A stretch of DNA of 34,794 bases, taken from the IMG/VR virus record IMGVR_UViG_3300008107_000386, positions 1-34,794 of that record; one strand, written 5' to 3'. The stretch is from a virus. The translations under genes were made by a program, and so were the position numbers. How positions within the stretch are numbered: the stretch's first letter is position 1; the number at the start of each line of letters is the position of its first letter. Below are positions 5,716 through 32,563 of this stretch, one piece after another. The notes beneath the pieces were generated by a model. It worked only from the letters and a program-made list of their open reading frames with translations, had not been told where the DNA came from and made no database searches.

Positions 5716-5723
5716 ATATTTAT
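5716..5723 (+). promoter_or_regulatory. Putative late promoter -10 element (ATATTTAT) before the gp25-like gene
   Basis: ATATTTAT ends exactly 7 nt before the ATG at 5731 and lies just after the terminator. The same element and spacing recur before 25922, 27621 and the minus-strand start at 32548. It resembles the T4 late promoter (TATAAATA) in composition and position but not in exact sequence. A start site about 7 nt downstream would place +1 at or beside the ATG. Confidence 0.55.
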
Positions 5724-5730
5724 ATGTGAT

Positions 5731-6189
5731 ATGGCAAATGGTATAACTTATGGAATTTCGTTCCCTTTTGTGGATTCGTTTACAGGTAGATATTTGGACG
5801 TTACTAATTCTACTGAAGGTGAAATTAGATCTAATCTTGTTCATTTATTATTAACTAGAAAAGGTAGTAGGTATTTTTTGCCTGATTTTGGTACAAGATT
5901 ATATGAATTTATCTTCGAACCGTTGGACGGTCCAACGTTTTCCGATATTGAGTCAGAAATAAGAGACACAGTAAGGACTTACATGCCTAATTTACAGGTA
6001 ACTAATATAACCGTTGAACCAGGTTCTGCCGGTTTAGAGGACAAAGGTTATACTGTAAATCAAGATGGTGAAAGAGAATTTAGAGTTACTAACATTTCTA
6101 ATTTAGAACATACGGCAAGAATCAAAATTGATTACAGAATAACAGATTCGGCTTTTGAATCACAGGATTTTGTGATATTAAATATTTAA
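5731..6189 (+). CDS. Baseplate wedge protein, gp25/GpW family
   Basis: This 152-residue protein has the GPW/gp25 (lysozyme-like fold) domain at about residues 28-130. The diagnostic run is NLVHLLLTRKGSRYFLPDFG, followed by LYEFIFEP. In T4, gp25 joins the wedge core to the inner baseplate and starts sheath assembly; this is the likely role here. It is slightly longer than T4 gp25 (132 residues). It is the first gene after the terminator at 5666, follows a TATTTAT element 7 nt before its ATG and has no Shine-Dalgarno sequence. The gp6-like gene follows after 6 nt, the same 25-6 order as in T4. Confidence 0.9.
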   Translation: MANGITYGISFPFVDSFTGRYLDVTNSTEGEIRSNLVHLLLTRKGSRYFLPDFGTRLYEFIFEPLDGPTFSDIESEIRDTVRTYMPNLQVTNITVEPGSAGLEDKGYTVNQDGEREFRVTNISNLEHTARIKIDYRITDSAFESQDFVILNI

Positions 6190-6195
6190 TAATAT

Positions 6196-8037
6196 ATGGC
6201 AGAGAAAAAAATATCCTATACGGTTAGGGATTTCCAAGGAGTAAGAACAGAGCTTATAAATTTTACTAGAACTTACTATCCTGATTTAGTACAAAATTTC
6301 AATGACGCTGGTATTTTTTCAGTCATGTTAGATTTGAATGCTGCAGTAACTGATAATTTAAATTATCAAATAGACAGAAGTATTCAAGAAACCGTTTTAC
6401 AGTTTGCACAACAAAAAAATTCCGTTTATAATATTGCAAGAACTTATGGTTTAAAAATACCAGGTCAAAGACCTTCCGTTGCGTTAGTGGACTTTTCAAT
6501 CACAGTTCCGGCATTTGGAGATAGAGAAGATATAAGATATTGTGGTGTCTTGAGAAGAGGTTCACAAGTAAATGGGGCTGGACAACCTTTTGAAACTGTT
6601 TATGATATTGATTTTGCATCACCAATAAACGCTGAAGGATCACCAAATAGAGTAAAAATCCCTAATTTTGACTCTAGTGGTAAGTTGATCAACTATACAA
6701 TAGTTAAACGAGAAGTTGTAGTTAACGGGATCACTAAAGTTTTCAAAAGAGTAGTTACCCCAAATGATGTAAAACCATATTTTGAATTATTTTTACCTGA
6801 AAAAAACATTTTAGGAATTTCAAGTGTGTTATTAAAATCAGGTACACAATATTCCACTATACCAAATCCACAGGATTTTCTCACATTAGGACCTGAAAGA
6901 TGGTTTGAAGTTGACGCTTTAGTACAAGATAGGGTATTTGTTGAAGACCCAACTAAAGTATCTGATCAACCTGGTATTAAAGTAGGTAGATATATTACAA
7001 CGTCCAACAAATTTATTTCGGAATATACACCTGAAGGATTTTGTAAAATAACATTCGGTGGGGGTAATATTTCCGCTGAAGAACAATTGAGAGAATTTGC
7101 TAGAGATGGTAAAGGATTTGATTTGAGTAGATACACCAATAATTATTCTTTGGGTGCCGCTCTAACACCAAATACTACTTTGTTCGTTCAATATAGAATT
7201 GGTGGAGGACTTGCTAGTAATGTCGGTCTAAACACTATAAATCAAATAGGTACAGTATCATTTGCGGTTAATGGACCTTCCGAGTCTGTAAACAGAAGTG
7301 TTATAAACAGCTTACAGTGTAATAACGTAACTGCCGCAATTGGAGGATCAAATATACCAACGACTGAAGATGTTAGAAATTTGGTTTCATTTAATTTTGC
7401 AGCACAAAACAGAGCGGTTACGGTAAATGATTACAATTCTTTAATTAGAACAATGCCTTCTCAGTTTGGAGCTCCTGCAAAAGTTGCAATCACAGAAGAA
7501 AATAATAAGATAAGAATAAAAATGTTATCTTATGATACAAGTGGTAGTCTTACTAATGTTGTCTCTAACACCTTAAAACAAAATGTTGCAAATTATTTAT
7601 CAAACTATAGAATGATAAATGATTATATTTCAATCGAAGCTGCAGAAACTATAGATCTTTCAGTAACTGTTGACGTTGTGTTGGATAATAGTCAAAACCA
7701 AGGTGCGATTATTTCTAAAACTATACAAATAGTTTCTGAGTTCTTTAACCCACTTGTTAGGGAGTTAGGTCAAAATGTTAATATATCTGAATTAAGAAGG
7801 TTAATACAATCCGAAAATGGAATTGTTAGTCTTTCTGACATTTCGTTCTTTAATCAAGTTGGAGGTCAGTATTCATCGGCACAAACATCAATGCCATATT
7901 CAAACCCATTAACAAGACAAATCCAACCAACTGCGGATACTATCTTTGCAACCCCAACACAAATCTATCAAATTAGATATCCAAATAAGGATATAAATGT
8001 TAGGGTTCTCAACCTTAAATCGGTTAACTTTTCATAG
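6196..8037 (+). CDS. Baseplate wedge protein, gp6 / baseplate J-like
   Basis: The 613-residue product fits the T4 gp6 / gpJ-like wedge family in length (T4 gp6 is about 660), position just after the gp25 homologue, and pattern. It has an N-terminal helical segment with the YTVRDFQGVRTELINFTRTYYPDL type of opening. The central part is beta-rich, and the C-terminus (about 520-560) has the FFNPLVRELGQNVNISELRR type of segment seen in baseplate J proteins. In T4, gp6 dimers form the ring that holds the wedges together around the hub. The ATG follows the gp25-like stop by 6 nt and no Shine-Dalgarno sequence is present. Individual functional residues are not known for this family. Confidence 0.82.
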   Translation: MAEKKISYTVRDFQGVRTELINFTRTYYPDLVQNFNDAGIFSVMLDLNAAVTDNLNYQIDRSIQETVLQFAQQKNSVYNIARTYGLKIPGQRPSVALVDFSITVPAFGDREDIRYCGVLRRGSQVNGAGQPFETVYDIDFASPINAEGSPNRVKIPNFDSSGKLINYTIVKREVVVNGITKVFKRVVTPNDVKPYFELFLPEKNILGISSVLLKSGTQYSTIPNPQDFLTLGPERWFEVDALVQDRVFVEDPTKVSDQPGIKVGRYITTSNKFISEYTPEGFCKITFGGGNISAEEQLREFARDGKGFDLSRYTNNYSLGAALTPNTTLFVQYRIGGGLASNVGLNTINQIGTVSFAVNGPSESVNRSVINSLQCNNVTAAIGGSNIPTTEDVRNLVSFNFAAQNRAVTVNDYNSLIRTMPSQFGAPAKVAITEENNKIRIKMLSYDTSGSLTNVVSNTLKQNVANYLSNYRMINDYISIEAAETIDLSVTVDVVLDNSQNQGAIISKTIQIVSEFFNPLVRELGQNVNISELRRLIQSENGIVSLSDISFFNQVGGQYSSAQTSMPYSNPLTRQIQPTADTIFATPTQIYQIRYPNKDINVRVLNLKSVNFS

Positions 8038-8088
8038 CGATTTATTTTTATAAAAACAAGTTTATCTTTTCTAAAATAGGAAATAAAC

Positions 8089-8095
8089 TATTTAT
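8089..8095 (+). promoter_or_regulatory. Putative late promoter element (TATTTAT), 17-nt leader
   Basis: TATTTAT lies in the 75-nt gap before the gene at 8113, in the context AACTATTTATG, nearly the same as that before 17270 (AACTATTTATT). It is 17 nt from the ATG, so a short leader is expected here, unlike the N7 class. An inverted pair AGTTTAT/ATAAACT (8059-8065 and 8083-8089) also sits in this gap, with no clear function. Confidence 0.45.
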
Positions 8096-8112
8096 GAAAA
8101 AACGAATTTTTA

Positions 8113-8760
8113 ATGCCCAAATCATATAGAATTAGGACTGAAGTTGGTGTTGATAAATATATCAATGTGAACCTCGAACAAGATTGGGAATCTTTAGAGA
8201 TACTTTCTTTGAAGATTTTAGCCGATGACTTATACACACGTTTCTGTGCCGATTACGGTGTTGTTGTTGGTAGAGTTTTTGTAAATAATGGTTTTGGTTT
8301 ACCAAAGGCGAAAGTATCGGTATTTATTCCTTTGGAAGATGCGGATGAATTAGACCCTGTGATATCAGAACTATATCCATACAAAACAATTACAGACACT
8401 AACGAGGCTGGTTATAGATATAATTTATTACCAAAACTACCATCATACAATGGACATCAATCGACAGGATCATTTCCTAACGTTGGTGACGTTTTAATGG
8501 ATGAATCATATATTGAGGTTTATGACAAGTACTATAGATATACGGTTACCACAAATGAGAGTGGTGACTTTATGATTTTTGGAGTACCAATCGGAAATCA
8601 AACAATAGTAATGGACGTTGACCTATCGGATATTGGATGTTTTTCACTATCCCCACAAGACTTGATACAACAAGGATTGGCAACAGAAACTCAAGTTAAT
8701 GGATCCACTTTTAGGACATCAACTAATTTGAGAGAACTACCTCAAATTAAAAATTTATGA
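8113..8760 (+). CDS. N-terminal part of a giant baseplate/tail protein (frame-split)
   Basis: This 215-codon frame encodes the start of a larger protein that continues in the +1 frame (8819-13468). It begins PKSYRIRTEVG. At about 50-190 it has a carboxypeptidase-regulatory-like beta domain: GRVFVNNGFGLPKAKVSVFIPL, then DTNEAGY and TNESGDFMIFGVPIG, the usual G.v...G.pl.ga.V...TdxxG.f....p pattern. It ends LRELPQIKNL at TGA 8758-8760. The +1 frame is open across this stop and reads IYDDDALKVSCKPK into the downstream frame. The likely full protein is about 1,780 residues. A single extra A in the AAAAA run at 8749-8753 would explain the break, but a larger deletion or real +1 frameshifting is also possible. 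The role is inferred from context only. Confidence 0.75.
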   Translation: MPKSYRIRTEVGVDKYINVNLEQDWESLEILSLKILADDLYTRFCADYGVVVGRVFVNNGFGLPKAKVSVFIPLEDADELDPVISELYPYKTITDTNEAGYRYNLLPKLPSYNGHQSTGSFPNVGDVLMDESYIEVYDKYYRYTVTTNESGDFMIFGVPIGNQTIVMDVDLSDIGCFSLSPQDLIQQGLATETQVNGSTFRTSTNLRELPQIKNL

Positions 8761-8818
8761 TGATGATGCTCTTAAAGTAAGTTGTAAACCAAAAAACAAC
8801 ACAGGAAATCTTTGTGAA

Positions 8819-11800
8819 TTGGTTTCAGGTCCAGGTGAAATTAAATCTGTTAGACAGACTATAAACACAGATTCGAACGGACTTCCTTTACTTGAGGTTT
8901 ATGATATTGAAGAAGAAGGAAAAGTTATAGATGGTGATGGGACATTTTTAATGAATGTACCAATGAATTTGGATTATGTTTTTACAAATGAATTTGGACA
9001 ACAAGTTTTATCGGATGATCCATCGAAAGGAATCCCAACAAAAGGAAAATATCGATTCAAATTTAAATGGCAAAATGACCAAGGACTACAAGGTAATTTT
9101 CAAAGGGCAGATTTTTTAGTACCTAATGTCAAAGAATATGGTTGGACTGGTAATTCAGACCCTTTTAATCAAAATCCAACTACCTTTACTTACCCTCAAA
9201 TTCCAATTGGGTCAACTACAGGAACAACATACACTTCACCCTCAAGTGTTGGATTGTCAAACCCTGTAACAATTAACGTAGAATCTTATTCTATCTATAT
9301 TAACGGTGTTGTTTATACAGGAACTTTAAATTCAATCACATTAAATCAAAATGATACTTTGTTGATTGTTGCAACACCTGTAGACCCTACTCAAGCACAA
9401 GATATTAGTTTTACTGAATATCCATTACAATTATTTAAGTTGTTAAAATCATATGCTTTCAGCACTGATTGGGATGACTACGTTAATCCTCAAGAAGCTA
9501 TAGATTGTGAAGATACTTTCTACGAATTTAAATACAACAAAGTATACACTACCGCAATGTTTTTGGATAGATATAAAAACGGCGTAGGTAGGGCAAAACA
9601 TTTAGGTATTAAAGAAATTGATAATAGAACATGTAAATCTACTGTTAACACATTTCCTGTAAATGATATTATTAGAAACTTTGATTTTATATTTTTTGTG
9701 TTCAACATACTCATTAACATTTTAACATTCCCAATCTTAGTTTTATTATTTGTAGCGCATTTAATTGCACTACTTTGGCCAATTCTTAAATACCTATTAT
9801 TATTCTTAGGTCCTTTCATAATTGCTATGGGAGTACAGGCTGGTGTAGATTTGGCTTATTATATTGCTGAAACTTTTGCATTTACGCCACTTGGTGGACC
9901 TGTAGTTAATTTTGGTACTTATCTACAAATTATTGCAAAAGGAATATATGCGTTGGCATTAGTCGCTGCCGGTGTCGTATTCACAATTTTTTATACAAAA
10001 TTCTTTAAAGAAAGTTTAGATAATGGAAGAGTTTCTAACTTTCCAAGAATCGGTTTACCAATGATTGCATACCCTGATTGTACAAGCTGTGATTGTCAAT
10101 GTGGTAATGCGACAATTGAGGATGGTTTTGATGAGAATGATATACAACAAGAAATTCAAGACGCTCAGGATGATTTAGGTGATTCATCATCAGGTTTTGG
10201 TTATGATATAACTTTTGCAGAACCAAATACGGTTTTAGCACCTTTGAGTTCACCAATAACTTATGAATTCGATCACCCAAATTTACAGGTAAATCAAGAT
10301 GGTGATGATCCTTATGATTGTGGTGGTGCTAGTCCTATATTTAAATCATTACAAACTTTAATAGGTAATGACGATATAGTTCCTGATTTAGCTGTCAGAG
10401 CAGTCCTTGATTTCAAAAGACTTGCGTCAGGTTATGATGTTCTGTCATCAACGGATCCGAACGCTTATTATACTGAGTTTTATTTATTACATGCCCCACA
10501 ACCATTTTTATTTTCTGGAAAAGATAGTGCGGGTAGCGATGAAAGATTCTTTGGTTACCCAACATCAGTAACTTTACCTCAAAAATTGAACGACTTCAAC
10601 ACACGAGACAAATATTTCTATTCAAACACGTCAAGTGCTGCGGGTACAGGTGTGAATAGAATCAAAACTACCGTAAATCCCGGTTCGTTTCAGGACCCAA
10701 AATATACTGACTCACAATCTAGTAATAGATTGATCAACTTAACAGGTGCAACTACAAATCAGTTCAATAATACCGCAATCACTGGTACTACTCTTACAGG
10801 ACAAACTTCAGTAACCATAAATTACGCAAACCCAAGTAACCCAAACGCCTCTATTCCTGTTACAGTACCATTTATACAACCATCTATAAGCCAACTACCT
10901 GTCGCTGGTAATCCGACCGTAGAACAATCTTATTTACAATACGCCACAGACGTAGAATATTTTCAGTTAATAACTGGTATTACAGTTTCTGATTTTGAAA
11001 CTAACTCGGGTTATAATGGAGGTAATTCAGGTTATTTTCCAAGCTCATATTTATTTCACAACATAACATATAGAATATCATCATGTGGGGCTCCTTATAG
11101 TTTATCTCAACAAGGTTCTATTTCAGATGTTTTAAGATTTGCAACTAATTATCAAAATTATGAAGTTTGTATATTTGTTAGGGGGGTAGATCCATTCTCA
11201 GCACCACAAACTATTAAGTACGACTTGTCTAAAATTTTTGGTAATACAAATTATGGTACGGTTACAGTTGAAGGTAGTTATTATTTAAATCAACCAATAC
11301 AAGCTCTACCAACTGGTTTGAAACCAACAAGTCATAATACAACAACAAACTCAAATACAACTTTATATTTTCCTTCATTTACGTTTACACCCGACCAAAC
11401 TCAATTTACCGCATTTACCTCAAACCTACCTTATTTCTATTCAAGTATAGATGATACTATTTCCTCTTCTTACATTCCAGCTCCTATTTGGTCAACAAAT
11501 AGTACACAAACCTCGGGTGGTTTAACAACACTATCTTCTGTAAGATCTGTACCTCTGAGTCAAACTTCTTATATGGTGGGTGGATCATATTTAGCTTGGT
11601 GGGATACAACATTAAGTAATCAACCGTTTATGACTACAGATAACAACCCCCCTTGTAATCAAGATTGTCAAAAAACACAATATTTTAATACAAATAATGG
11701 ATCTTTCGTGACAGCACCAAACAATGGTAACCTAACTGCTCTATATTCACCGGCTTACTATAGATACATTGGGTCAGGATCATTATCAGGACCTATTCAA

Positions 11801-13468
11801 TTCAATTTGGCAAACTACAATCGAATAGTTATGAGGAGTGATAGATTACCTACATCCACTGGCATACAAAATGGTGCTAATTTAAGAACAGGATACCTTT
11901 TACACCAAAATGATAATTTTTCAATTTATACATTAACAGGTGTTTTGGAACCACCAACAATAAACACAGGTGGGGACTTACCTAATGGTGATGGTCTTGA
12001 TAGTGACTCAATAACATCAGGATTAACAAGTTCTTTAACATGTGAGGGCATGGTTCCTTTGGAATGTTACTCAGGATCAGGTTCAAATGTTGGCATAATA
12101 CCCTCAAATCAATGCTCGATTCCAACTAACAGAATGATAAATGGTTGTTATTGTTTATTAAACAGGCGTTATGTTAAAGAGTATGGAGCGGATGTCAGAC
12201 TATTTTTAGAGTGGAAAGTAAGGTTTACAATGAACTTTGCCGCTTGTAGAGGAGTATTTGCACAAGTTTTCCAAAACAATTGGATCAATGGAGTTCTTTA
12301 TATGTATAGTTTCAATAAAAGAACAACATTCGGATTAGACCCAACAAACCCTACCTACAACTACTGCGACGATGTTATTATATTCAATGATTTAACTAAT
12401 AATTTCTTTTATAGATCATCACCATGGAATGAACAACAACAAAAATTTATTGGTAAACAATCCCCCGCTCCTCCTAATATACCCGCACAATTTTTAGTAT
12501 TTCCTGGTTTAGGTTATAATGTTAGACAAATACAATTCCCAACTACAATTGTTGATATGGGACCGAGAGATAGTTTTATCAACGAAATATGTTGTTCTGG
12601 TGTTGACGGATTTGGTTCATATTTTGCTGATCAATTAAAGGCAACTTCTTATCAAGACAATTCTGACATTATACAACTTGGATTCTTATCAAGAATATTG
12701 AATGAGGGTGTAAGACAAAGAATTATACCAATAGGACAAGGTCAAAACAATACTGAAGGTAAAGGAATTGAACAATTTTTTAATAGCGATAGAGGTGGTT
12801 ATAGAATTGACGGAGATTGGGCTCAAATGTTATCGATAAATTCCGAATGGAAAGTATTACCTTTTATTACTGAAAACGTGCCGAGTAATAGTTATATCTA
12901 TTTTGGTGACAATTTGAATGGTCTATCTTCTGGTGTACCTTCGGATGAAATAAAACCTATCTTAGGTTTATTTTTTACCGCAAATACTCCCGAAATTAGA
13001 TATCGAAAAATAATGTCACCTGGAATTGAAACTTATAACTTCAATCCGTTAATTGAAGAGAAATTTGGATATGGTAAATCACAAGTTGTTCCTCACTATA
13101 AATGGTGGATAAAAACACCTACAACCTACGTTGGAACACCAAACATTTTTGGATCTGAAGATAATAATTGGTACACACAAACATATTCTTCAGGTTTCTT
13201 TCAGAAAAAATATCAAGATTTAGATTTTACAACTTTGGGTGAGAAGTATATGACAACACAAACAAAATATGGATACATAGCTAGCTTTAATTTAACTGGA
13301 GGTACAATGCCAATTACACCATTGACTAATATACTACAAGGAGACCCTAGCACAAATTCAAGTAATGCTGTTGTTGTAGGTGCACCATACCACTTCTATT
13401 TTGGTTTGAATAATGGAAAAACTGCGATAGATAGATTTTATAAACTTTATGTAGCAACTCAAGATTAA
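8819..13468 (+). CDS. Main part of a giant baseplate/tail protein with membrane-like segments
   Basis: The frame has 1,549 codons from TTG 8819 but is open further upstream (through 8759), so this TTG is probably not a real start; the true start is likely ATG 8113. It opens with a conserved-looking stretch (GPGEIKSVRQTI, MNLDYVFTNEFG, GIPTKGKYRFKFKW). At about residues 288-400 a long hydrophobic region could form three or more membrane helices, followed by a Cys cluster (CTSCDCQCG, about 422-430) and an acidic segment. The rest is Asn/Thr/Ser-rich beta-type sequence typical of virion proteins, with a Cys-bearing region near 1090-1120. It lies between gp6-like and other structural genes. Membrane segments are unusual in a baseplate protein and suggest contact with the envelope during infection; this is inference. 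Confidence 0.75.
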   Translation: MVSGPGEIKSVRQTINTDSNGLPLLEVYDIEEEGKVIDGDGTFLMNVPMNLDYVFTNEFGQQVLSDDPSKGIPTKGKYRFKFKWQNDQGLQGNFQRADFLVPNVKEYGWTGNSDPFNQNPTTFTYPQIPIGSTTGTTYTSPSSVGLSNPVTINVESYSIYINGVVYTGTLNSITLNQNDTLLIVATPVDPTQAQDISFTEYPLQLFKLLKSYAFSTDWDDYVNPQEAIDCEDTFYEFKYNKVYTTAMFLDRYKNGVGRAKHLGIKEIDNRTCKSTVNTFPVNDIIRNFDFIFFVFNILINILTFPILVLLFVAHLIALLWPILKYLLLFLGPFIIAMGVQAGVDLAYYIAETFAFTPLGGPVVNFGTYLQIIAKGIYALALVAAGVVFTIFYTKFFKESLDNGRVSNFPRIGLPMIAYPDCTSCDCQCGNATIEDGFDENDIQQEIQDAQDDLGDSSSGFGYDITFAEPNTVLAPLSSPITYEFDHPNLQVNQDGDDPYDCGGASPIFKSLQTLIGNDDIVPDLAVRAVLDFKRLASGYDVLSSTDPNAYYTEFYLLHAPQPFLFSGKDSAGSDERFFGYPTSVTLPQKLNDFNTRDKYFYSNTSSAAGTGVNRIKTTVNPGSFQDPKYTDSQSSNRLINLTGATTNQFNNTAITGTTLTGQTSVTINYANPSNPNASIPVTVPFIQPSISQLPVAGNPTVEQSYLQYATDVEYFQLITGITVSDFETNSGYNGGNSGYFPSSYLFHNITYRISSCGAPYSLSQQGSISDVLRFATNYQNYEVCIFVRGVDPFSAPQTIKYDLSKIFGNTNYGTVTVEGSYYLNQPIQALPTGLKPTSHNTTTNSNTTLYFPSFTFTPDQTQFTAFTSNLPYFYSSIDDTISSSYIPAPIWSTNSTQTSGGLTTLSSVRSVPLSQTSYMVGGSYLAWWDTTLSNQPFMTTDNNPPCNQDCQKTQYFNTNNGSFVTAPNNGNLTALYSPAYYRYIGSGSLSGPIQFNLANYNRIVMRSDRLPTSTGIQNGANLRTGYLLHQNDNFSIYTLTGVLEPPTINTGGDLPNGDGLDSDSITSGLTSSLTCEGMVPLECYSGSGSNVGIIPSNQCSIPTNRMINGCYCLLNRRYVKEYGADVRLFLEWKVRFTMNFAACRGVFAQVFQNNWINGVLYMYSFNKRTTFGLDPTNPTYNYCDDVIIFNDLTNNFFYRSSPWNEQQQKFIGKQSPAPPNIPAQFLVFPGLGYNVRQIQFPTTIVDMGPRDSFINEICCSGVDGFGSYFADQLKATSYQDNSDIIQLGFLSRILNEGVRQRIIPIGQGQNNTEGKGIEQFFNSDRGGYRIDGDWAQMLSINSEWKVLPFITENVPSNSYIYFGDNLNGLSSGVPSDEIKPILGLFFTANTPEIRYRKIMSPGIETYNFNPLIEEKFGYGKSQVVPHYKWWIKTPTTYVGTPNIFGSEDNNWYTQTYSSGFFQKKYQDLDFTTLGEKYMTTQTKYGYIASFNLTGGTMPITPLTNILQGDPSTNSSNAVVVGAPYHFYFGLNNGKTAIDRFYKLYVATQD

Positions 13469-13469
13469 G

Positions 13470-17240: not shown

Positions 17241-17241
17241 C

Positions 17242-17248
17242 TATTTAT
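17242..17248 (+). promoter_or_regulatory. Putative late promoter element (TATTTAT), 21-nt A-rich leader
   Basis: TATTTAT lies immediately after the stop at 17240, in the context AACTATTTATT, and 21 nt before ATG 17270. The intervening leader is almost all A. It shares the AACTATTTAT core with the element at 8089. Confidence 0.45.
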
Positions 17249-17269
17249 TAAAAAAAAGAAAAAAACAAA

Positions 17270-23351: not shown

Positions 23352-23352
23352 A

Positions 23353-23652
23353 ATGCCAAATCAAGTTGTTATATTATCTGCAACTGGCGTTACATCCCCA
23401 TTCAGTGGTACTGCTTGTGATGTGTACGGTAACAATTGTTCCTATATTGGTAGCGGCACAACATTTCCTGTACTTTTTATTCTACCATCACAATTTGACA
23501 CTGCACCAGCACTACAGTTGACCTTAACTGATTCATTGGGTTGCTCAATTTCAGAAATAATATATTGTACTGGTGGTGGAGGACCAGACAAACAATTCCA
23601 AAATTTAGAATATTTCTTCTTTATGAGTGGAGATATCTATCAATTCCAATAA
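23353..23652 (+). CDS. Small Cys-containing protein, paralogue of the product at 32327-32548
   Basis: This 99-residue protein starts 1 nt after the previous stop. It reads MPNQVVILSATGVTSPFSG, then ACDVYGNNCSYI, a hydrophobic LPSQF segment and LTDSLGCSI. The same order (MPxQ...PF...ACD...C.YI...LP....DS..C) occurs in the 73-residue minus-strand product at 32327, so the two are paralogues. The last 25 residues (KQFQNLEYFFFMSGDIYQFQ) are an extension absent from the paralogue. In both loci the small gene directly precedes a large adhesin-like gene, suggesting an adaptor or chaperone for fibre attachment. That function is inferred and no family is recognised. Confidence 0.65.
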   Translation: MPNQVVILSATGVTSPFSGTACDVYGNNCSYIGSGTTFPVLFILPSQFDTAPALQLTLTDSLGCSISEIIYCTGGGGPDKQFQNLEYFFFMSGDIYQFQ

Positions 23653-23656: not shown

Positions 23657-23664
23657 ATATTTAT
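23657..23664 (+). promoter_or_regulatory. Putative late promoter element (ATATTTAT), N8 spacing
   Basis: ATATTTAT starts 5 nt after the stop at 23652 and ends 8 nt before ATG 23673, one base longer than the N7 class. Its place just before this ATG supports 23673, and not an upstream in-frame ATG, as the real start of the fibre gene. Confidence 0.5.
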
Positions 23665-23672: not shown

Positions 23673-24887
23673 ATGGCATTATTAACAGACCAAATTTTAG
23701 CTACAGGTGTCACCCCAAGTGATTTAATACACATAGTAATAACTGGTGATACCTCACAAAATCCTGCGGGTTCATCATATAAGGCACCAATAAGCCAAGT
23801 TCTTTCTTTATTTACAGGAACTACTGGTGGGAATGAAGGATATTATGGACAGTTTTATGTTAATACAAATCTCTTTGCACCTACATCAGGGACATCTAAT
23901 ACCATACAATTCAGTGGTACTGAATTATCAAATCAGGTAAGTTTGAACACCATGTCGTTAACCAATGACTCAATTATTTTTAATCAGTCAGGTAAATATC
24001 AAATCTATTTTAGAGGTACTTTATATAATGGGGCGTCAACTAAAGAGAGTGTAAGTGTTACATCATACCTCGGATCAAACATTGTAAGATCGGCAATAGA
24101 TAATGTTGACGTTGAGGCAAATGGTGGTTATGAGACAATAAGTTTTGAAAGTTTGGTGGATGTTGTTTCAGGAGAATCTCTATATTTTATATGGAAAACA
24201 TCCAATATATTAACGGGTTTTATAAATAGTGCAGGTCTTTCGACAGGATATAGTATAAACGTTAGTGTTTTTAGTGTTGGAGATGTTTTGAGTGGTGCTT
24301 CAGGTACTAATGGAACTTCAGGAACTAGTGGTGTTAATGGGACTAGTGGTACCAATGGAACCAGTGGAACTAATGGAACTAACGGCACAAGTGGAACTAA
24401 CGGCACAAGTGGAACTAACGGTAGTTCAGGTACTAGTGGTGTTAAAGCTTGGGGATCGTTTATTTCTACAGTCGATCAAACTATTGGTGTGGCGGGAACA
24501 ACTTATAAAATGAGTGCGGATACAACTACAACTAATTCGAATGTAACATTGTCAGGTGGTAGTAGATTTGTTGTTACAAATGGTGGTACGTACAACATAC
24601 AGTTTTCCGCTCAAATAAACAAATCATCAGGAACTCAAGGAAGTGTTTGGATATGGTTGAGTAGAGGAGGTACACCTATTACTGCCACAAACACTGAAGT
24701 TTACTTAGGTGGATCAAGCAATGAAAGAACAGTGGCGGCTTGGAATTGGGTTGATGAGTGTGACGCAGGTGCATATTACGAAATAGAATGGACCGCTGAA
24801 CATAATAATGTGTTTTTAGATTATACCGCATCACCAACATATGGACCGGCAGTTCCATCTTTAATTGTTACTTTGACACAAGTTTAA
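23673..24887 (+). CDS. Collagen-like tail fibre with two C1q-like beta domains
   Basis: I start the 404-residue protein at ATG 23673 (MALLTDQILATG). The in-frame ATG at 23541 would overlap the previous gene and add an implausible Trp/Arg-rich leader. Residues 58-205 form a beta-sandwich resembling C1q/TNF-type heads (QFSGTELSNQVS ... SGKYQIYFRGTLYNG). Residues 208-257 are 16 collagen-like G-X-Y triplets, nearly all GTS or GTN. Residues 258-404 form a second C1q-like domain (TTYKMSADTTTT ... NGGTYNIQFSAQINKSSG), ending PSLIVTLTQV. Such an architecture gives a trimeric fibre with globular ends, probably binding host surface glycans or proteins. The short N-terminus may attach to the baseplate. 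Confidence 0.85.
   Translation: MALLTDQILATGVTPSDLIHIVITGDTSQNPAGSSYKAPISQVLSLFTGTTGGNEGYYGQFYVNTNLFAPTSGTSNTIQFSGTELSNQVSLNTMSLTNDSIIFNQSGKYQIYFRGTLYNGASTKESVSVTSYLGSNIVRSAIDNVDVEANGGYETISFESLVDVVSGESLYFIWKTSNILTGFINSAGLSTGYSINVSVFSVGDVLSGASGTNGTSGTSGVNGTSGTNGTSGTNGTNGTSGTNGTSGTNGSSGTSGVKAWGSFISTVDQTIGVAGTTYKMSADTTTTNSNVTLSGGSRFVVTNGGTYNIQFSAQINKSSGTQGSVWIWLSRGGTPITATNTEVYLGGSSNERTVAAWNWVDECDAGAYYEIEWTAEHNNVFLDYTASPTYGPAVPSLIVTLTQV
24294..24443 (+). repeat. Collagen-like G-T-S/G-T-N triplet repeat inside the fibre gene
   Basis: Sixteen consecutive G-X-Y codon triplets plus a partial one encode residues 208-257 of the fibre. Two 18-nt units (24375-24392 and 24393-24410) are identical, followed by a partial third. 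Other units vary mainly at third codon positions. The reverse strand of the same stretch is an artefactual Pro/Leu/Val repeat. Confidence 0.9.
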
Positions 24888-24925
24888 TCAATTCACTTTT
24901 ATTTAAATTGACTTAATTTTCCTTT

Positions 24926-25906
24926 ATGGAAAAAATTCTTTTTGTCTCCGCACAGCCAGATGTCCCGTACTTTATTTGGCAAATTAAAATTTATGTAAAT
25001 AATTTTATTGAAAGTGGTATTGAACCTCAGCAAATACATGTCGTGTTAGGTTTAGTTAATGGTGAAAAAACTCTGTCCAAGAATGCAGAACAATTAAAAG
25101 AATTGGGTATTAACATTCATTTTTTTGTTGATGATAGAATTAAAAAAAATTACATACCAAGTATTAAACCATATTTAATTTCTAAATGGTTACAGTCCAA
25201 TAAAAGTTTTGGAAACCTTTTTTTTCTTCACGACGCCGATATTGTGTTTAGATCACTACCAAATTTTGATAAACTACTAAATGATAACATTTCTTATTTG
25301 TCAGATACTATTGGGTATATTGGTTATGATTATATTATGGATTGTTGTAATAGGTATGAATTAAAACACCCTAATTCACAAAAAGGACAATTGATAAATG
25401 AAATGGCTGAGGTTATTGGTATCGATATTGAAACAATTAAAATTAACCAACAGAATTCAGGTGGAGGACAGTATCTTATAAAAAATACAACACCTGAAAT
25501 TTGGGATAAGATCTATAAAGACTCAACTAAACTTTATGATCAAATGTTGGATTATCAAAAAAGATTCCCAATCAATCCAGGCCAAATACAATTTTGGACT
25601 GCAGAGATGTGGTCATTACTTTGGAATTTATGGATGTACGGATATAATACAAAAATAACGGATGAGTTAAGTTTTTCTTGGGCTACTGATACTATTGAGA
25701 TTTATGAAAAACATAGAATATTACATATGGCAGGAGTTACCGATGATTTAAAATCTACAAAATTTTATAAAGGTGATTACATTAACGTAGACCCAATTTT
25801 GAAATTAAGACAAAACCCAAATCATTTTGATTATGTCGATAAGAATAGTTCCACAATAAAATATATTGAGAATATGAAATCATTTATTCAAAAATACAAC
25901 ATTTGA
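24926..25906 (+). CDS. Glycosyltransferase, GT-A-like with DxD motif
   Basis: The 326-residue enzyme opens EKILFVSAQPDVPYFIWQI and has a Rossmann-like pattern. FLHDADIVF (residues 100-108) contains a DAD motif (D103/D105), the metal- and nucleotide-sugar-binding DxD of GT-A enzymes. NSGGGQYLIKN (177-187) resembles the NxGxxxxxxN acceptor-side motif of this fold. WTAEMW (224-229) and ILHMAG (H267) could supply further ligand contacts. There is no signal peptide or membrane helix, so it should act in the cytoplasm. It lies between the collagen-like fibre and an SprB-containing protein, both rich in Thr/Ser. Modification of fibre or host glycan are both possible. The leader lacks a good N7 TATTTAT element; a weak ATTTAA sits 19 nt upstream. 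Confidence 0.75.
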   Translation: MEKILFVSAQPDVPYFIWQIKIYVNNFIESGIEPQQIHVVLGLVNGEKTLSKNAEQLKELGINIHFFVDDRIKKNYIPSIKPYLISKWLQSNKSFGNLFFLHDADIVFRSLPNFDKLLNDNISYLSDTIGYIGYDYIMDCCNRYELKHPNSQKGQLINEMAEVIGIDIETIKINQQNSGGGQYLIKNTTPEIWDKIYKDSTKLYDQMLDYQKRFPINPGQIQFWTAEMWSLLWNLWMYGYNTKITDELSFSWATDTIEIYEKHRILHMAGVTDDLKSTKFYKGDYINVDPILKLRQNPNHFDYVDKNSSTIKYIENMKSFIQKYNI

Positions 25907-25907
25907 T

Positions 25908-25914
25908 TATTTAT
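25908..25914 (+). promoter_or_regulatory. Putative late promoter element (TATTTAT), N7 spacing
   Basis: TATTTAT begins just after the glycosyltransferase stop and ends 7 nt before ATG 25922. There is no room for a leader with a Shine-Dalgarno sequence if transcription starts 6-8 nt downstream. Confidence 0.5.
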
Positions 25915-25921
25915 ATAGATA

Positions 25922-27592
25922 ATGATGAATTCAACAACTCCAACTATTAGAAGACCAAATGAATGTGATGTTATTACGATATTTCCTATGGGAGTCGAAT
26001 GCTCGGTATTACAACCTTCAACCGAAAGATCTTTTGATGGTGCAGCAACACTAATAATTACAGGAGGTACACCACCTTATACTATTTTTTGGGAAATTGG
26101 TAGTTTTGCACCGGCTTTGGCAAATATTGGTGTTGGTGAATATAGAGCGACCGTAGTAGATTATTACGGGGATTTTACCGCAAATACAACTTGTGTATTA
26201 ACAGCAACTACCGAGACTTATTCGGGGGTTTGTTTTGTTCTTTCAGGAATTTTACAAAATGAATTAGTTTATATTTCATCCGAAAGTTTAGGGTTAAAAA
26301 ATGGAAAACCATATTATAAAATACAATATGGTGTTGAAACTTATGGATATGTTTTTTGGGATCCAAATAATAATCAATGGATATTCTGTAATACCTTAGA
26401 TTGTCAAGGTAATTATTACAATTATTTAGATAACGGTAATTTCTTTTATCCAACTGGGAATACAGCTCCTGATAATTGGAGATTATACTCTGACTCACCA
26501 TATATAATTACAGAATCAGTTTTAGGTCTTTGCTCAATACCAAAACCCGAAGTAGAACCAACGGACTTATGTGGTACTTTAATCACAGTAAATAACAAAG
26601 GAGGAGGATATTCACTTGTTGAAAATATACAATTTGAGCCGAGTATCGACATAAACGGAGAATCTAGTTGGACTGCGATAACAAATGATTATATTATTTA
26701 TTGGAATACAGGATCAACACCATCACAATGGACTCTTTCAGGATTTAGTAACGTAAATGCAAATGTTGTAAATAACGACCCCTCAAATCCACCAATTAGT
26801 AATTGGCAAGTATTCGGGGATCCTACTATATTAAGTTTTGATGCTAACGTAGGTTTGTGTTCATCGGCTTATACCATTTCAGTTCTTTCTACAGTCAATA
26901 ACGCTGGATGTGAGGCGACAGGTAGTATTATTGCACAAGCATCGGGAGGGCAAGCACCATATCAGTATTCAATAGACGGAGGAGTTACTTATGTAAATTC
27001 ACCAATATTTAACAATCTTACACCTGCGTTCTATACGGTTTATGTTAAAGATTCAAATGGAGTTGTGGGCGTTGGTCAGACAGTACAAATAACAAGTACA
27101 ATACCAACTTCTTATACATTAACATTAAGTGTCAATTATTCAAACAATACATTCACTATTACATCTCCTGTATTACCAGTTGGAGTTACAATAACAGTCA
27201 ATTTAAATCATTTATCAACTTTTAGTTTTTATCCGTCTTCATTACCAAATCAACCAACCTATAATAATGTTACCACAATTAACACTGTTGGACCTATGAC
27301 ATTAGTTAATACATCCAATAACAGTTATCCATTGGCAGGACCTTGTACCGCGGACTTCCCTATAACAGTTATACAACAAACGAATCAATACACAAATACT
27401 TTAAATATAGGTAGTAATCAAACAATAACAGGATCAATTACTAATAATATTATAAATAATCCAAATGGACCTTGTGAGTATGCATCTGGATATTACACTT
27501 TGACCATTTCAAATGGGGTGTTAAATAATTGTACGTGTTGTAATTTAAATTTAGTAAATACGACACCACCATCACAAAATCCTGTACAATAA
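25922..27592 (+). CDS. Putative fibre/adhesin with SprB-like repeats and paired unknown domains
   Basis: The start is ATG 25922 (a second ATG follows directly). The 556-residue protein has an SprB-like domain at about 28-95 (TGGTPPYTIFWEI ... IGVGEYRATVVD). Two related domains follow: A (98-205) and B (216-314), each with a Tyr/Trp-rich core (YGYVFWDPNNNQWIF; YIIYWNTGSTPSQW) and ending in W...GLCS. Then comes a classic SprB repeat at 319-391 (NNAGCEATGSIIAQASGGQA ... VKDSNGV). The C-terminal 165 residues are Thr/Asn/Ser-rich beta-type sequence with a final Cys pair (CTCC). There is no signal peptide. The N-terminal Cys and SprB domains suggest an adhesive structural role. The 7-nt TATTTAT spacing supports the start. 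Confidence 0.7.
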   Translation: MMNSTTPTIRRPNECDVITIFPMGVECSVLQPSTERSFDGAATLIITGGTPPYTIFWEIGSFAPALANIGVGEYRATVVDYYGDFTANTTCVLTATTETYSGVCFVLSGILQNELVYISSESLGLKNGKPYYKIQYGVETYGYVFWDPNNNQWIFCNTLDCQGNYYNYLDNGNFFYPTGNTAPDNWRLYSDSPYIITESVLGLCSIPKPEVEPTDLCGTLITVNNKGGGYSLVENIQFEPSIDINGESSWTAITNDYIIYWNTGSTPSQWTLSGFSNVNANVVNNDPSNPPISNWQVFGDPTILSFDANVGLCSSAYTISVLSTVNNAGCEATGSIIAQASGGQAPYQYSIDGGVTYVNSPIFNNLTPAFYTVYVKDSNGVVGVGQTVQITSTIPTSYTLTLSVNYSNNTFTITSPVLPVGVTITVNLNHLSTFSFYPSSLPNQPTYNNVTTINTVGPMTLVNTSNNSYPLAGPCTADFPITVIQQTNQYTNTLNIGSNQTITGSITNNIINNPNGPCEYASGYYTLTISNGVLNNCTCCNLNLVNTTPPSQNPVQ

Positions 27593-27605
27593 ATGTAACA
27601 TAAGA

Positions 27606-27613
27606 ATATTTAT
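27606..27613 (+). promoter_or_regulatory. Putative late promoter element (ATATTTAT), N7 spacing
   Basis: ATATTTAT ends exactly 7 nt before ATG 27621, matching the element before 5731 in both sequence and distance. Confidence 0.55.
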
Positions 27614-27620
27614 CTTTTAA

Positions 27621-30119
27621 ATGGCATATATAATTAAAAACACATCGGGTTTAGTAAACACAAGAGTTACAGATACAGGAAGACAAAGATTGTCGGAAGG
27701 TAGATTTAACATTGTTTATTTCGCAGTAGGAGATAGTGAAGTATCTTATGATGAATTACCATCAACTTACAATCAATCGAATACGGTTATATTAGAACCA
27801 CAATTTAACTCACAAAATAGTTCGGGGGTTCCTGAGTCAAATAGACAATATATAAAATACCCATATTTAGTTGACGAGGGTGAAACAAATATTTATGGAA
27901 TTCCTTTTATGGATTCTGGAATTGAATCTGTTTATAATAGAGCCGCAATGAGAGGTTTCTTTACAGGGAACACAACCGCATCCACTATAGATTGGAAGGC
28001 TTTAGTAAACAACAGTTACGTTGTTACGGCTAACTATGTTGTAAACATGTATACACTAAATGGTACTAACGAAATTAACGTCTACGCTTTAGGTGGTAAT
28101 GTACAAAATACTAATACACCACAAGTTGGTGATTTTATTACAATATATTACGATGGTAGAGGATCTACTGACACAAGCTGTAGCAATTTCCCAACGCCCA
28201 CACCAAGTGCTTCTGCAGGTCAAACACCAACACCTACACCAACACCAAGTTCTACAAATGGAAATCCTTGTGCTTCACCAACACCAACACCTACACCAAC
28301 ACATACCCCTTGTCTAACACCATCCAACACACCACAATGTCCTGTACCACCACCACCTGATTGTGTAAAAGACGTTGTAAGTTGCTTCTCAATCCTCACA
28401 TATAGAATAACCGCAGTTTGTGGTGATAAATTAACTCTTGATAGACCAACACCTGACTTTACTAACTTATCCTCAGATTGTATTGCAAGAACAATTATTT
28501 ATCCACCACAGATGGTACCTTTATATGATAGTTTTACACCTGAACCACATTGGGCTCAAAGTGTAATTGATTTTGAATCGGTTTGTGACACAGATCAGTT
28601 TGATGTTAAAATATGGAACATGAATATTCCGTGGACTGAAAGTCCTGCGGGATTATCGTCAACACAATATCAAGACTATACTAAATTTGGATCAATAAAT
28701 TATATAGGTCAGAAAGAATATTTTGGATATAATTCTTCTGATGGACAAACATCAACTGATGATGTTTACTATTACAACTCGTTCGGAGAAAAAATTGTTG
28801 TTACCCCAGAAAATCAAAAAGCAATAGCGATCATTCACTATACAAATCAAACAATCGATTTCTTCTATGGTGAAAAATTTGCATTAGAGCCATTTGATTC
28901 TAACAATGTTGATAACACCCAAGGACAAGCCAGAAACTTCAAATTGCACATGCCAACCATAATGTGGCATAAAAACCCTGAATGTTGTTTTGGTCAAACA
29001 TTTTGGGTTGATCCTGCAGGATTTGAAGGTAAAAATTTATTTGAAGTTCAATATATTAAGTCAAAAATATCAGATCAAATGAATCAACCTGGTATAAGAT
29101 ATTATAATCTTTGGGACACTTTTGCACAACCTAATGGATTACCAAGTAGAGTTGGTAAAGTATTTCCCGATTCAAAGTTAATTGTTATTGATGATGAAGA
29201 GTTAGTTGCAGCATTATCTTATAAATCAAATAGAAATTGGACTTTACCGGCACCTCAAGTTTCACTGATAACCCCTAATACATGTGGAGTATCCAACTCA
29301 ACAGGAGTTTTAACAGGTGGGTCAGAAACACTTTGGATTACATACCGATTATCGAATACAAATACATTTACAAATTCACTACATAGTAATTACTATACTA
29401 GTGTTGTTGGGACCCAAAATGTTTGTAGTCCTGACACACCTCAAAATGTGGCGGTTAGATTCGGATCTGAATTTCCATGTTTGGTACAACCTGGATTCAA
29501 TCCAACAACAACTACCACAACAACATTTAACCCAACCACAACAACAACCACAATACCTTACACGACAACAACTACAACTAGTTGTCCTGTTTGTGTTGTA
29601 CCGGCTGGATTCTACGCACAACAATTCCAAGTTTTGGCACAGAAAACTCCTATAGGAGAAAGACCAAATCCTGAACTGTGGAAATTGATTGATTTTACAA
29701 GTCAAATTAGCCAAAATTTTATCAACGGATATGTAACTCAAGAATCCTTAACCGCAACTACATTTATTGTTACTGCGGAAAATTATAGTTCTGCACCTTA
29801 CTACAATCTTAATGATTATATTGATTTAGTTCCCAACGGCGCAACAGGTCAGCAATTGAATTTTGGTGATGAATATTATTTTTATGGTAACTTGGAAACT
29901 GACATACAAGCAACAATTTACGAAATGAAATATAAAATAAATTTGAGTTCTAGCGAGTTTTTAGTTTCACAAAACCCAACTTGGACATTTGGAACTCAAT
30001 CTTATATCTCTGAAATTGCTTTAATGGATGAAAATAAAGATATATTAGTAATGTCAAAAATGCAATCTCCCGTATTAAGACAAGGAATTCAACAATATGT
30101 TATAAAGTTAGATTTTTGA
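27621..30119 (+). CDS. Virion structural protein with Pro/Thr and poly-Thr linkers
   Basis: The 832-residue product begins MAYIIKNTSGLVNTRVTDTG, followed by GRFNIVYFAVGDSEVSY, a pattern I associate with T4-like and related phage structural proteins. A PTPTPTP-type linker lies at 190-246, and three blocks of six or seven Thr (FNPTTTTTTTF, NPTTTTTTI, YTTTTTTSC) lie at about 627-660. Folded beta segments surround these linkers. The C-terminus (YISEIALMDENKDILVMSKM then a KLDF ending) looks like the terminal domain of several baseplate/tail proteins. The linkers are mucin-like and could be O-glycosylated. The promoter element 7 nt upstream marks the start. Confidence 0.75.
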   Translation: MAYIIKNTSGLVNTRVTDTGRQRLSEGRFNIVYFAVGDSEVSYDELPSTYNQSNTVILEPQFNSQNSSGVPESNRQYIKYPYLVDEGETNIYGIPFMDSGIESVYNRAAMRGFFTGNTTASTIDWKALVNNSYVVTANYVVNMYTLNGTNEINVYALGGNVQNTNTPQVGDFITIYYDGRGSTDTSCSNFPTPTPSASAGQTPTPTPTPSSTNGNPCASPTPTPTPTHTPCLTPSNTPQCPVPPPPDCVKDVVSCFSILTYRITAVCGDKLTLDRPTPDFTNLSSDCIARTIIYPPQMVPLYDSFTPEPHWAQSVIDFESVCDTDQFDVKIWNMNIPWTESPAGLSSTQYQDYTKFGSINYIGQKEYFGYNSSDGQTSTDDVYYYNSFGEKIVVTPENQKAIAIIHYTNQTIDFFYGEKFALEPFDSNNVDNTQGQARNFKLHMPTIMWHKNPECCFGQTFWVDPAGFEGKNLFEVQYIKSKISDQMNQPGIRYYNLWDTFAQPNGLPSRVGKVFPDSKLIVIDDEELVAALSYKSNRNWTLPAPQVSLITPNTCGVSNSTGVLTGGSETLWITYRLSNTNTFTNSLHSNYYTSVVGTQNVCSPDTPQNVAVRFGSEFPCLVQPGFNPTTTTTTTFNPTTTTTTIPYTTTTTTSCPVCVVPAGFYAQQFQVLAQKTPIGERPNPELWKLIDFTSQISQNFINGYVTQESLTATTFIVTAENYSSAPYYNLNDYIDLVPNGATGQQLNFGDEYYFYGNLETDIQATIYEMKYKINLSSSEFLVSQNPTWTFGTQSYISEIALMDENKDILVMSKMQSPVLRQGIQQYVIKLDF

Positions 30120-30173
30120 CAACTATTCAGTTTCAGATCAAATTGTATATTTTAATTTAAAAGAATCTTATTT

Positions 30174-30779: not shown

Positions 30780-30807
30780 TAATATCCTTTTAAATACCGA
30801 TAATTGG

Positions 30808-30839
30808 AAATATCGTCTTTATAGACGATATTTTTTTTT
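30808..30839 (+). terminator. Terminator between convergent genes
   Basis: The 10-bp perfect arms AAATATCGTC (30808-30817) and GACGATATTT (30824-30833) with a 6-nt loop are followed by T residues to 30839. It ends the resolvase gene transcript (+). On the minus strand it follows the stop of the 30838-32325 gene directly; the T-run is weaker there, so bidirectional use is uncertain. Confidence 0.85.
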
Positions 30840-32325
30840 AAACACAAACTGTGTTTAAGAAGTCTACAACGATGTTTGAAGAAGTTGAGGTTGGAGTTGT
30901 TGTTGAACAAATTATTATTGCTGAATAAGAAGTTACAGAACTACTTTCACTACCAGTACAATTATTGTAATTAAATTTAACTATTGAAGGGCTATTATTA
31001 GTAACTCTGTATTGATATAAAACACAAGGACTAACACTTGGAGTTGGAGTTGGTGTATTTGTTGGAGTTGGAGTTGGGGTTTGAGACAAATTAGGTATAC
31101 ATTGTAAACAAGCTCCATCGGTTTGAGAACCAATTTCAGTGGTTAGTGTTACAGAATCAACACCACTTATATTTTCAAAAAGACCATCAAACAGAACACA
31201 CAATCCTTGACCATTTATTACCGCATTGTAGACATAACCTTGTTTTGGTGATGTTTCTCCTGAAACCAAAACTAAATCTGAAGTGTAATAATGTACACCT
31301 GTAAAACAATCAGTAAACCTTTTACTGTTTGCACATTGTAAAATTTCAGAAATTGTACTAAATGTGACATCACCACTAAACGAACAAGGTCTTGTCACAT
31401 CTGGTGATGGTGACGGTGTTGGAGTATTTGTTGGTGTTGGTGTTGGTGTATAACCACTTGCGGTGACCAACATAGAAATACCACCACAAATCGCGGAAGA
31501 TGTTGGGGTTGGAGTTGGTGTGGGGGTTGGGGTATTTGTTGGCGTTAAACTTGGGGATGGTGTTACTAAACAATCAAATATCGCGGAAAAATCAAAATCA
31601 ACACACGGATTTGTGGTTGTTGTCGTAGTTACGCAGTATCCAGTATAAGCAACTGTATCATCAAAATCAGGACAAGTAGACGTACTACCATATGGGCCAA
31701 ATTGATCACATGGATCACCTAAATTTTGTGCCAAACACCATCTTGTTTCACCTGTTGAGTAAAACATAAAATATCCTGTTGTTTGACCTGTATAATAAAA
31801 TTGACCACCGTAAACACTGGCTTGCTGATATGTATCATCGTATGTGGAGTCATTTTCAACACAAAAAAATTGAGTACATGTACATGCTGAAATTCCAATC
31901 AGTTGACCAGTAAAATCTGTTTCATATACATCAATACCATCTGAATAGTATGCTAAAGTTGTTGAAATAGTACATCCTGAATCTGAAAATAAAAATTCAC
32001 CAATAGTTAAAGAGTCACCATAAATTGGGTTTATTAAAGGTGCTCTACACGAGGAATCTGGATCTGCTGTTGCGGAAAATAATCCCAAAAAGTTACAAGA
32101 ACAACCTGATATTCCTAATTTAATGGCTCCTGTACCACCAGTTTCAAAAATATTATTACCATTACTTAAGAAATAATTATCCAAGGTGACCGTACAACCT
32201 GAGTCTTGATAAACTAAATTACCAGGGTATAAAGAAGTACCATACAATGTGGTTGTTGTTGCTGATGTACACAACAATGGGTTATTAACACTATCTATCG
32301 CAAACGAACCTAAACTAACGCACAT
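30838..32325 (-). CDS. Cys-rich, mucin-like putative adhesin (minus strand)
   Basis: This 495-residue protein has about 27 Cys. Two tandem domains at 18-77 and 92-150 share a YGxS ... YxDSGCT ... FET ... GISxCxC pattern. A Tyr/Trp-rich domain (155-231) follows. Poly-Thr (233-238) and three Pro/Thr linkers (254-276, 292-309, 415-430) separate further small domains, such as FSGDVTFSTISEILQCANSK to CLQC and a C-terminal beta domain (YQYRVTNNSPSIVKFNYNNC). No signal peptide is seen, so it is more likely a virion protein than a secreted one. It follows the small 73-residue gene by 1 nt in an isolated minus-strand block. A virion fibre or decoration is the best guess. Confidence 0.68.
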   Translation of the reverse strand: MCVSLGSFAIDSVNNPLLCTSATTTTLYGTSLYPGNLVYQDSGCTVTLDNYFLSNGNNIFETGGTGAIKLGISGCSCNFLGLFSATADPDSSCRAPLINPIYGDSLTIGEFLFSDSGCTISTTLAYYSDGIDVYETDFTGQLIGISACTCTQFFCVENDSTYDDTYQQASVYGGQFYYTGQTTGYFMFYSTGETRWCLAQNLGDPCDQFGPYGSTSTCPDFDDTVAYTGYCVTTTTTTNPCVDFDFSAIFDCLVTPSPSLTPTNTPTPTPTPTPTSSAICGGISMLVTASGYTPTPTPTNTPTPSPSPDVTRPCSFSGDVTFSTISEILQCANSKRFTDCFTGVHYYTSDLVLVSGETSPKQGYVYNAVINGQGLCVLFDGLFENISGVDSVTLTTEIGSQTDGACLQCIPNLSQTPTPTPTNTPTPTPSVSPCVLYQYRVTNNSPSIVKFNYNNCTGSESSSVTSYSAIIICSTTTPTSTSSNIVVDFLNTVCV

Positions 32326-32326
32326 A

Positions 32327-32548
32327 TTATAAACTTAAATTTTCTTTTACTATACAATTATTACTATCTACAACTTTAACACCACAAGATGCCATACCTT
32401 CTAAAATAAATGGTAAATCAAAAGAATATGGAACCTCAGATGTTCCAATGGTATCAACGTAAATACAAGTTGTATATCCTGTATCACAGGCATAAACATC
32501 AAATGGGGATAATCCACTTAAACTTGAGATTGTTATTTGTGTTGGCAT
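32327..32548 (-). CDS. Small protein, paralogue of the product at 23353-23652 (minus strand)
   Basis: The 73-residue protein reads MPTQITISSLSGLSPFDVYA, then ACDTGYTTCIYV, LPFILEG and VVDSNNCIV. The order and spacing match the 99-residue product at 23353. It stops 1 nt before the start of the large minus-strand adhesin gene, the same 'small gene then adhesin' arrangement as on the plus strand. An ATATTTAT element 7 nt upstream of its ATG suggests that it is the first gene of a late minus-strand operon. No known family is recognised. Confidence 0.65.
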   Translation of the reverse strand: MPTQITISSLSGLSPFDVYACDTGYTTCIYVDTIGTSEVPYSFDLPFILEGMASCGVKVVDSNNCIVKENLSL

Positions 32549-32555
32549 ATCATCA

Positions 32556-32563
32556 ATAAATAT
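32556..32563 (-). promoter_or_regulatory. Putative late promoter element (ATATTTAT) for the minus-strand operon
   Basis: On the minus strand ATATTTAT ends exactly 7 nt before the ATG at 32548, the same arrangement as before 5731, 25922 and 27621. The element sits in the 75-nt divergent gap. On the other side, the primase gene has a TATGTTTA (32605-32612) that loosely resembles the Bacteroidota TAnnTTTG promoter element; this is weak. Confidence 0.55.

Follow-up and report, generated by a model that had tools for sequence, protein, structure and literature searches.

Late transcription in bacteriophage T4 initiates at promoters with a short, nearly invariant A/T box located about one helical turn before the start site (PMC2988020). 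This box, TATAAATA, occupies positions -13 to -6, and late transcription uses the sigma factor gp55 together with gp33 and the gp45 clamp; T4 genes often carry Shine-Dalgarno (SD) sequences. The window analyzed here, which is the whole 34,794-base record IMGVR_UViG_3300008107_000386, and its relatives contain a box, TATTTAT, that is likewise short, nearly invariant and A/T-only, and that would lie about one helical turn before its predicted start site. As in T4, the box marks virion genes; more complete box-bearing genomes encode a putative sigma factor with a gp55-like domain 2. The two systems differ in the sequence of the box, in the C terminus of the sigma factor, which here lacks the clamp-binding motif and carries an extra conserved domain, and in the gene starts, about half of which look leaderless here. 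A literature search, covering open-licence papers, retrieved no report of the TATTTAT motif.

Two cultured phages offer further points of comparison. Flavobacterium phage vB_FspM_immuto (Immutovirus) carries TATTTAT-AATAAA boxes at virion genes, among them those for terminase, portal, sheath and tube; TATTTAT is the top-ranking word of the structural region (100-150 kb), and a homologue of the sigma factor described below, annotated as hypothetical, is encoded at 78130-78828. Immuto differs from the phages studied here in that its boxes are mostly leadered, its gp6 shares ~24% identity and its genome measures 160 kb. Rhodothermus phage RM378 has a box of its own, TATTTAA, 40 of whose 61 genomic copies are located upstream of genes. 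Eleven TATTTAA copies stand exactly 13 nt before an ATG and are followed by an A run, forming an apparent near-leaderless promoter, and the sheath and tube genes have longer leaders; the annotated sigma factor of RM378 (199 aa), however, has no detectable similarity to the one found here. TATTTAT was not used in the 50 kb examined of Microcystis phage Mel-JY01, nor in positions 1-50000 of Tenacibaculum phage PTm1. The top word upstream of PTm1 starts was ATACATA (10 copies versus 0.33 expected), which stands at the sheath and head-completion genes among others and represents a candidate late box. Given the different boxes in immuto, RM378 and PTm1, the late boxes of T4-like phages seem to have diversified in this part of the bacterial tree.

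The primary sigma promoter of Bacteroidota, the phylum that probably includes the hosts of these phages, is TAnnTTTG, with its first T at -12 in the studied host (PMC6847099). TATTTAT shares T-12 and A-11 with this element; its core differs, and the box does not conform to TAnnTTTG. A GTDB scan for host clues yielded no relative.

From the evidence set out below we conclude that TATTTAT is very probably a divergent T4-type late promoter of large T4-related phages, with about half of its genes predicted to be leaderless. This would supply an explicit rule for late promoters in a phage family that is abundant and mostly uncultured, by which late genes of unknown function could be recognized from sequence; immuto, which is cultured on Flavobacterium sp. 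LMO8, offers a system for testing the rule. It also points to leaderless or near-leaderless translation on a large scale in phages whose probable host phylum is represented by F. johnsoniae, the studied host, in which most mRNAs have leaders of over 10 nt (PMC6847099).

TATTTAT boxes, gene order and gene classes

The window contains 29 copies of TATTTAT on both strands together. A first-pass annotation had listed seven gene starts preceded by the motif, and all seven were recovered at the spacings given there (Table 1). Only ~0.13 copies are expected at -27 to -11 of the 24 starts, as against the seven seen, one of which falls just outside this interval (P ~1e-10, a Poisson value that, as for the other motif counts, ignores local composition). 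Five of the seven boxes begin at -15 to -14 and two at -28 to -24. The terminator-like hairpin preceding the first box is not significant on its own, the window holding eight terminator-like sites versus 8.0 expected in shuffles.

Table 1. Positions of the putative late promoters, the genes behind them and an associated hairpin in the window.
Feature	Position	Strand	Remarks
Terminator-like hairpin with T run	5666..5691	+	Between RNR (early) operon and first late promoter
TATTTAT box, near-leaderless type	5717..5723	+	N7 to ATG 5731, gp25-like baseplate gene; predicted start site ~5729 (A)
Baseplate wedge genes, presumed unit of first late promoter	5731..8037	+	PHROG baseplate wedge families
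gp25-like gene	5731-6189	+	PHROG baseplate wedge family
gp6-like gene	6196-8037	+	PHROG baseplate wedge family
TATTTAT box, leadered type (TATTTATGAAAAAA)	8089..8095	+	17 nt to 8113; predicted start site ~8101, leader ~12 nt
Closely packed gene run behind promoter 8089	8113..17240	+	Tail/baseplate inferred by position; no PHROG match
TATTTAT box, leadered type (TATTTATTAAAAAAAA)	17242..17248	+	21 nt to 17270; predicted start site ~17254, leader ~16 nt
Genes behind promoter 17242	17270..23652	+	No PHROG match
TATTTAT box, near-leaderless type	23658..23664	+	N8 to ATG 23673, tail-fibre gene
Tail-fibre-like gene (23673-24887) and phrog_4417 gene (24926-25906), behind promoter 23658	23673..25906	+	
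TATTTAT box, near-leaderless type	25908..25914	+	N7 to ATG 25922
556-aa gene behind promoter 25908	25922..27592	+	
TATTTAT box, near-leaderless type	27607..27613	+	N7 to ATG 27621
832-aa gene behind promoter 27607	27621..30119	+	
Two genes (73 aa, 495 aa) behind promoter 32562	30838..32548	-	
TATTTAT box, near-leaderless type	32556..32562	-	N7 to ATG 32548; diverges from primase operon

The placement of the box after gaps, noted earlier for the window, holds generally. Genes with a box almost never abut the gene upstream: the median gap was 53-60 bp with a box as compared with 5 bp for other genes (P=2e-30), gaps below 8 bp were found at 1-4% of box genes versus 53%, and genes inside tight operons hardly ever had one. 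The association of the box with virion genes was also borne out, boxes being present at 7/11, 8/11 and 10/13 virion homologues in three genomes and at 1/10, 1/10 and 1/7 early genes, with modest single-genome tests (P 0.007-0.024) on genomes that share orthologues and are not independent. A hand-made gene list for one relative (G021) gave 17/22 virion versus 2/16 early genes (P=1.9e-4). The early exception in every genome tested was the helicase. The first-pass annotation had stated that the motif does not precede the helicase; this is correct for the window, but in four relatives the replicative helicase has TATTTAT at -30/-31 (G001, gene 58303; G021, gene 235573; also G005 and G036). It had likewise placed no copy before the resolvase. 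In fact the start at 30174 overlaps a TATTTAT at 30169, a copy that is kept in none of eight relatives and probably arose by chance. The box is specific for virion genes with the helicase excepted, and late timing of their expression is presumed. No box was found near the major capsid gene nor, in two relatives out of three, near that for the portal; both genes would need readthrough.

Enrichment, conservation and spacing in related phages

Relatives were collected from IMG/VR through the gp6-like protein, one protein query yielding at least 597 of them; their contigs, 60-304 kb in size, are partly incomplete, and related genomes were pooled in some counts. The enrichment that the late-promoter proposal predicts was found genome-wide. 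TATTTAT-N5..8-ATG occurred 17, 15, 17 and 43 times in G001, G002, G003 and G005, respectively, compared with 2, 4, 3 and 11 occurrences of the same pattern read backwards. In a blind test of 7-mers upstream of starts, TATTTAT was the top word in eight of ten genomes (G001, G002, G003, G004, G005, G021, G036 and G041; P 1e-17 to 1e-56); it came second in G009 and shared third place in G006. The identical code applied to T4 returned ATAAATA, which forms the core of that phage's late box. Exact TATTTAT was enriched 47-fold in the near class of sites and one-base variants at most 5.5-fold, a near-invariance of the kind seen in T4-type late promoters.

The sequence TATTTATA is the exact reverse complement of TATAAATA from T4, a point missed by the first-pass annotation. 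A T4 promoter read on the other strand was rejected because the orientation of the box is fixed and ATAAATA, the reverse complement with identical composition, forms no comparable peak upstream of starts in the relatives.

Footprinting, with up to 81 loci and contigs alignable to a given site, revealed an intact box in 66/71 aligned relatives at 5717, 76/78 at 8089, 31/33 at 17242, 3/4 at 23658, 1/1 at 25908, 3/5 at 27607 and 8/8 at the minus-strand site 32562. The share of aligned relatives keeping a start-linked box was thus 60-100%, and 93-97% at the three sites with the best coverage, whereas the other alignable copies were intact in only 0-47% despite similar flanking identity. Because start-linked copies mostly stay intact and other copies mostly do not, the alignments indicate that selection holds the start-linked sites, most clearly the three sites with many relatives and the minus-strand site.

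The distance between box and ATG is bimodal; a uniform spread was unlikely in each genome tested (P=5.6e-4 and 6.2e-5), and the same shape recurs in a third lineage (G036). Gene starts were defined as the longest ATG open reading frames (ATG only), which biases the box-ATG offsets given here. The near class peaks at -14 to -11 and so places the box ~12 bp before the start codon, as in promoters of leaderless mRNAs (cf. PMC3160421). In this class the A of the ATG, usually preceded by T, occupies the +12 place, counting from the box's first T. Of the far-class sites, 92-95% have AA at +12/+13; its position tracks the box for box-ATG distances of 20-24, and does so less sharply for 25-27, a range with 22 sites only. 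When far-class sites are aligned on the ATG instead, the A signal is blurred. Longer leaders would thus open with an AAA whose position is fixed to the box and not to the ATG. At the sheath and tube genes, the products of which are required in large quantity, the boxes lie at -39 to -45 and precede A-rich leaders. A look upstream of the box for a -35 element showed only a weak A/T-only tract, located at a distance of ~15 bp.

These arrangements suggest that transcription begins ~12 nt downstream of the box's first T, a position predicted from geometry. With the start set at +12, the inferred leaders in the three genomes of 290-304 kb measured -1 to +1 nt at 100 sites, 2-6 nt at 22 (3-6 nt at 16) and 7-12 nt at 111. 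Predicted leaders thus cluster at -1 to +2 nt and at ~8-12 nt, lengths of 3-6 nt being depleted. TAnnTTTG of the host type also stands exactly 12 nt before ATGs in these phages (8 copies where 0.32 are expected and 6 where 0.36 are), in support of this geometry and of a host among the Bacteroidota. The proposal of leaderless mRNAs is refined as follows: about half of the promoters are predicted to be leaderless or near-leaderless, and the remainder would have A-rich leaders of 8-16 nt. Within the window, the five near (N7/N8) sites would probably start 1-3 nt before the AUG, whereas the promoters at 8089 and 17242 are predicted to be leadered. SD cores were at or below background, in agreement with the lack of SD sequences reported at first pass. 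The candidate late-promoter interpretation is supported as a whole, conservation and SD absence agreeing with the enrichment and with the sigma factor described next.

A candidate late sigma factor in the relatives

The suggested search for a gp55-like sigma factor yielded a candidate in the more complete relatives. The PHROG gp55 family matched one open reading frame of G005 (E=1.8e-4), a match that is weak alone, 7/14 control genomes also giving one. A profile of the family built on this frame recovered the immuto homologue (QQO92070.1) with E=2.7e-17 and T4 gp55 weakly (0.024), and the G021 member matched T4 gp55 directly (3e-4). Profile-profile comparison with gp55 (hhalign) gave a probability of only 18%, and the match to Pfam sigma-70 region 2 was below cut-off. 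The AlphaFold model of the full-length protein is of low to moderate confidence (pLDDT 73.5, pTM 0.39). Foldseek searches with it returned sigma factors as nearly all top matches, every E-value being >0.1, and domain-2 fragments matched known sigma factors with probabilities of 0.93-0.97. In a viral library, too, phage sigma factors were prominent among the best matches (lowest E 1.2e-4, for an entry without a name).

The C-terminal 89 residues, modelled alone, reached a pLDDT of 89 and read like a helix-turn-helix; a fold search with this domain gave no convincing match. The C terminus is conserved and unlike the clamp-binding motif of gp55, LDFLYE in T4. Searches for the T4 partners gp33 and gp45 gave no credible match, PHROG 254 producing only weak matches inside long open reading frames and PHROG 223 none; divergent versions of both are possible.

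The family is abundant in IMG/VR and occurs in contigs carrying the gp6 gene, including relatives with 67-79% identical gp6. No member was found in the window or in the nearest long contigs (G001-G004, G006 and G009), which are incomplete; near-complete box-bearing genomes and immuto do encode one. On the basis of this co-occurrence of box and sigma factor in the relatives and in immuto, we regard the sigma, with its gp55-like domain 2, as the factor most likely to guide RNA polymerase to TATTTAT.

We therefore propose TATTTAT as the putative -10-type box of late promoters in phages of up to ~300 kb whose hosts are probably Bacteroidota. The phage-made sigma factor would most likely bring RNA polymerase to the box, and transcription would begin at an A ~11-12 bp after its first T. 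At about half of the promoters this A would be that of the start codon or lie 1-3 nt before it, resulting in a leaderless or near-leaderless mRNA; at the other half it would open an AAA-rich leader of ~8-12 nt, longer for the sheath and tube genes.

An extension of this model is possible but, taken as a whole, doubtful. The protein may be a natural single-chain late sigma acting at promoters that set the mode of translation: its gp55-like domain 2 would be joined to the helix-turn-helix-like C-terminal domain, the latter would stand in for sigma region 4 or gp33 and make separate clamp partners unnecessary, and a start A followed by ATG would specify a leaderless mRNA, AAA an A-rich leader. 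A review of the T4 system asks why no fused late sigma has been found (PMC2988020). If a late sigma here does join two functions that T4 keeps apart, this question of T4 biology becomes testable.

Competing readings of the box

The reading of TATTTAT as a promoter, and not as another DNA or RNA signal, derives from sequence comparison and was weighed against four alternatives. The box could be read by the main or an alternative sigma factor of the host instead of the phage sigma: it shares its TA with the host -7 element, TAnnTTTG, and TAnnTTTG boxes do exist exactly 12 nt before ATGs in these genomes. We consider this unlikely. TATTTGT, like other one-base variants, shows no enrichment at near sites, for which reason the host TAnnTTTG was rejected as the late box. 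Furthermore, TATTTAT marks virion genes, whereas the host-type boxes mark other, mostly unknown genes, and both immuto and the near-complete genomes with the box encode the phage sigma.

Alternatively, TATTTAT might act in the mRNA as an element aiding initiation without SD sequences. The box does sit no more than 30 nt from start codons, the genes lack SD sequences, and initiation contexts in Bacteroidota are A-rich and Kozak-like (PMC6847099). Such a translation signal would not, however, be expected to fall into two separate distance classes or to demand stringent identity over 7 bp. The AAA, moreover, keeps its distance from the box and not from the ATG, which favours a promoter, and the box is nearly absent inside tight operons, whose genes need translation equally. 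A role in translation is for these last two reasons judged quite improbable.

Only slightly more remote is the possibility that, as in phiKZ or AR9, the phage reads the box with an RNA polymerase of its own, either multisubunit or single-subunit. Several relatives approach 300 kb and so match such phages in size, and phiKZ late promoters consist of a short TATG element (PMC5312081); against this, a simple pattern search for the beta-prime DFDGD-type signature in G021, G005, G001 and G003 found none, and the structural genes are T4-type. Finally, an artefact of A/T-rich intergenic DNA, conceivable in genomes of 30-35% G+C, is practically negligible and was rejected, because the reverse-complement control of identical composition is flat and footprinting separates start-linked from other copies.

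Beside the late promoter proposed here, the genomes contain other repeated elements. TAnnTTTG exactly 12 nt before ATGs in G021 (8513-18481) and elsewhere suggests leaderless early transcripts, and the G021 genes at 13668 and 48611 carry both TAnnTTTG and TATTTAT. In immuto another element recurs upstream of genes, TTTAGGT near -32 combined with TAATTAAAA near -20, and is probably another promoter class. Two of the jumbo relatives carry large clusters of 22-24 tRNAs, at ~103-115 kb in G021 and ~222-228 kb in G036, and G005 has one; no tRNA cluster has a box upstream at a consistent distance. The phrog_4417 protein of the window, whose function is unknown, is shared (~35% identity) mainly with phages of Lactobacillales.
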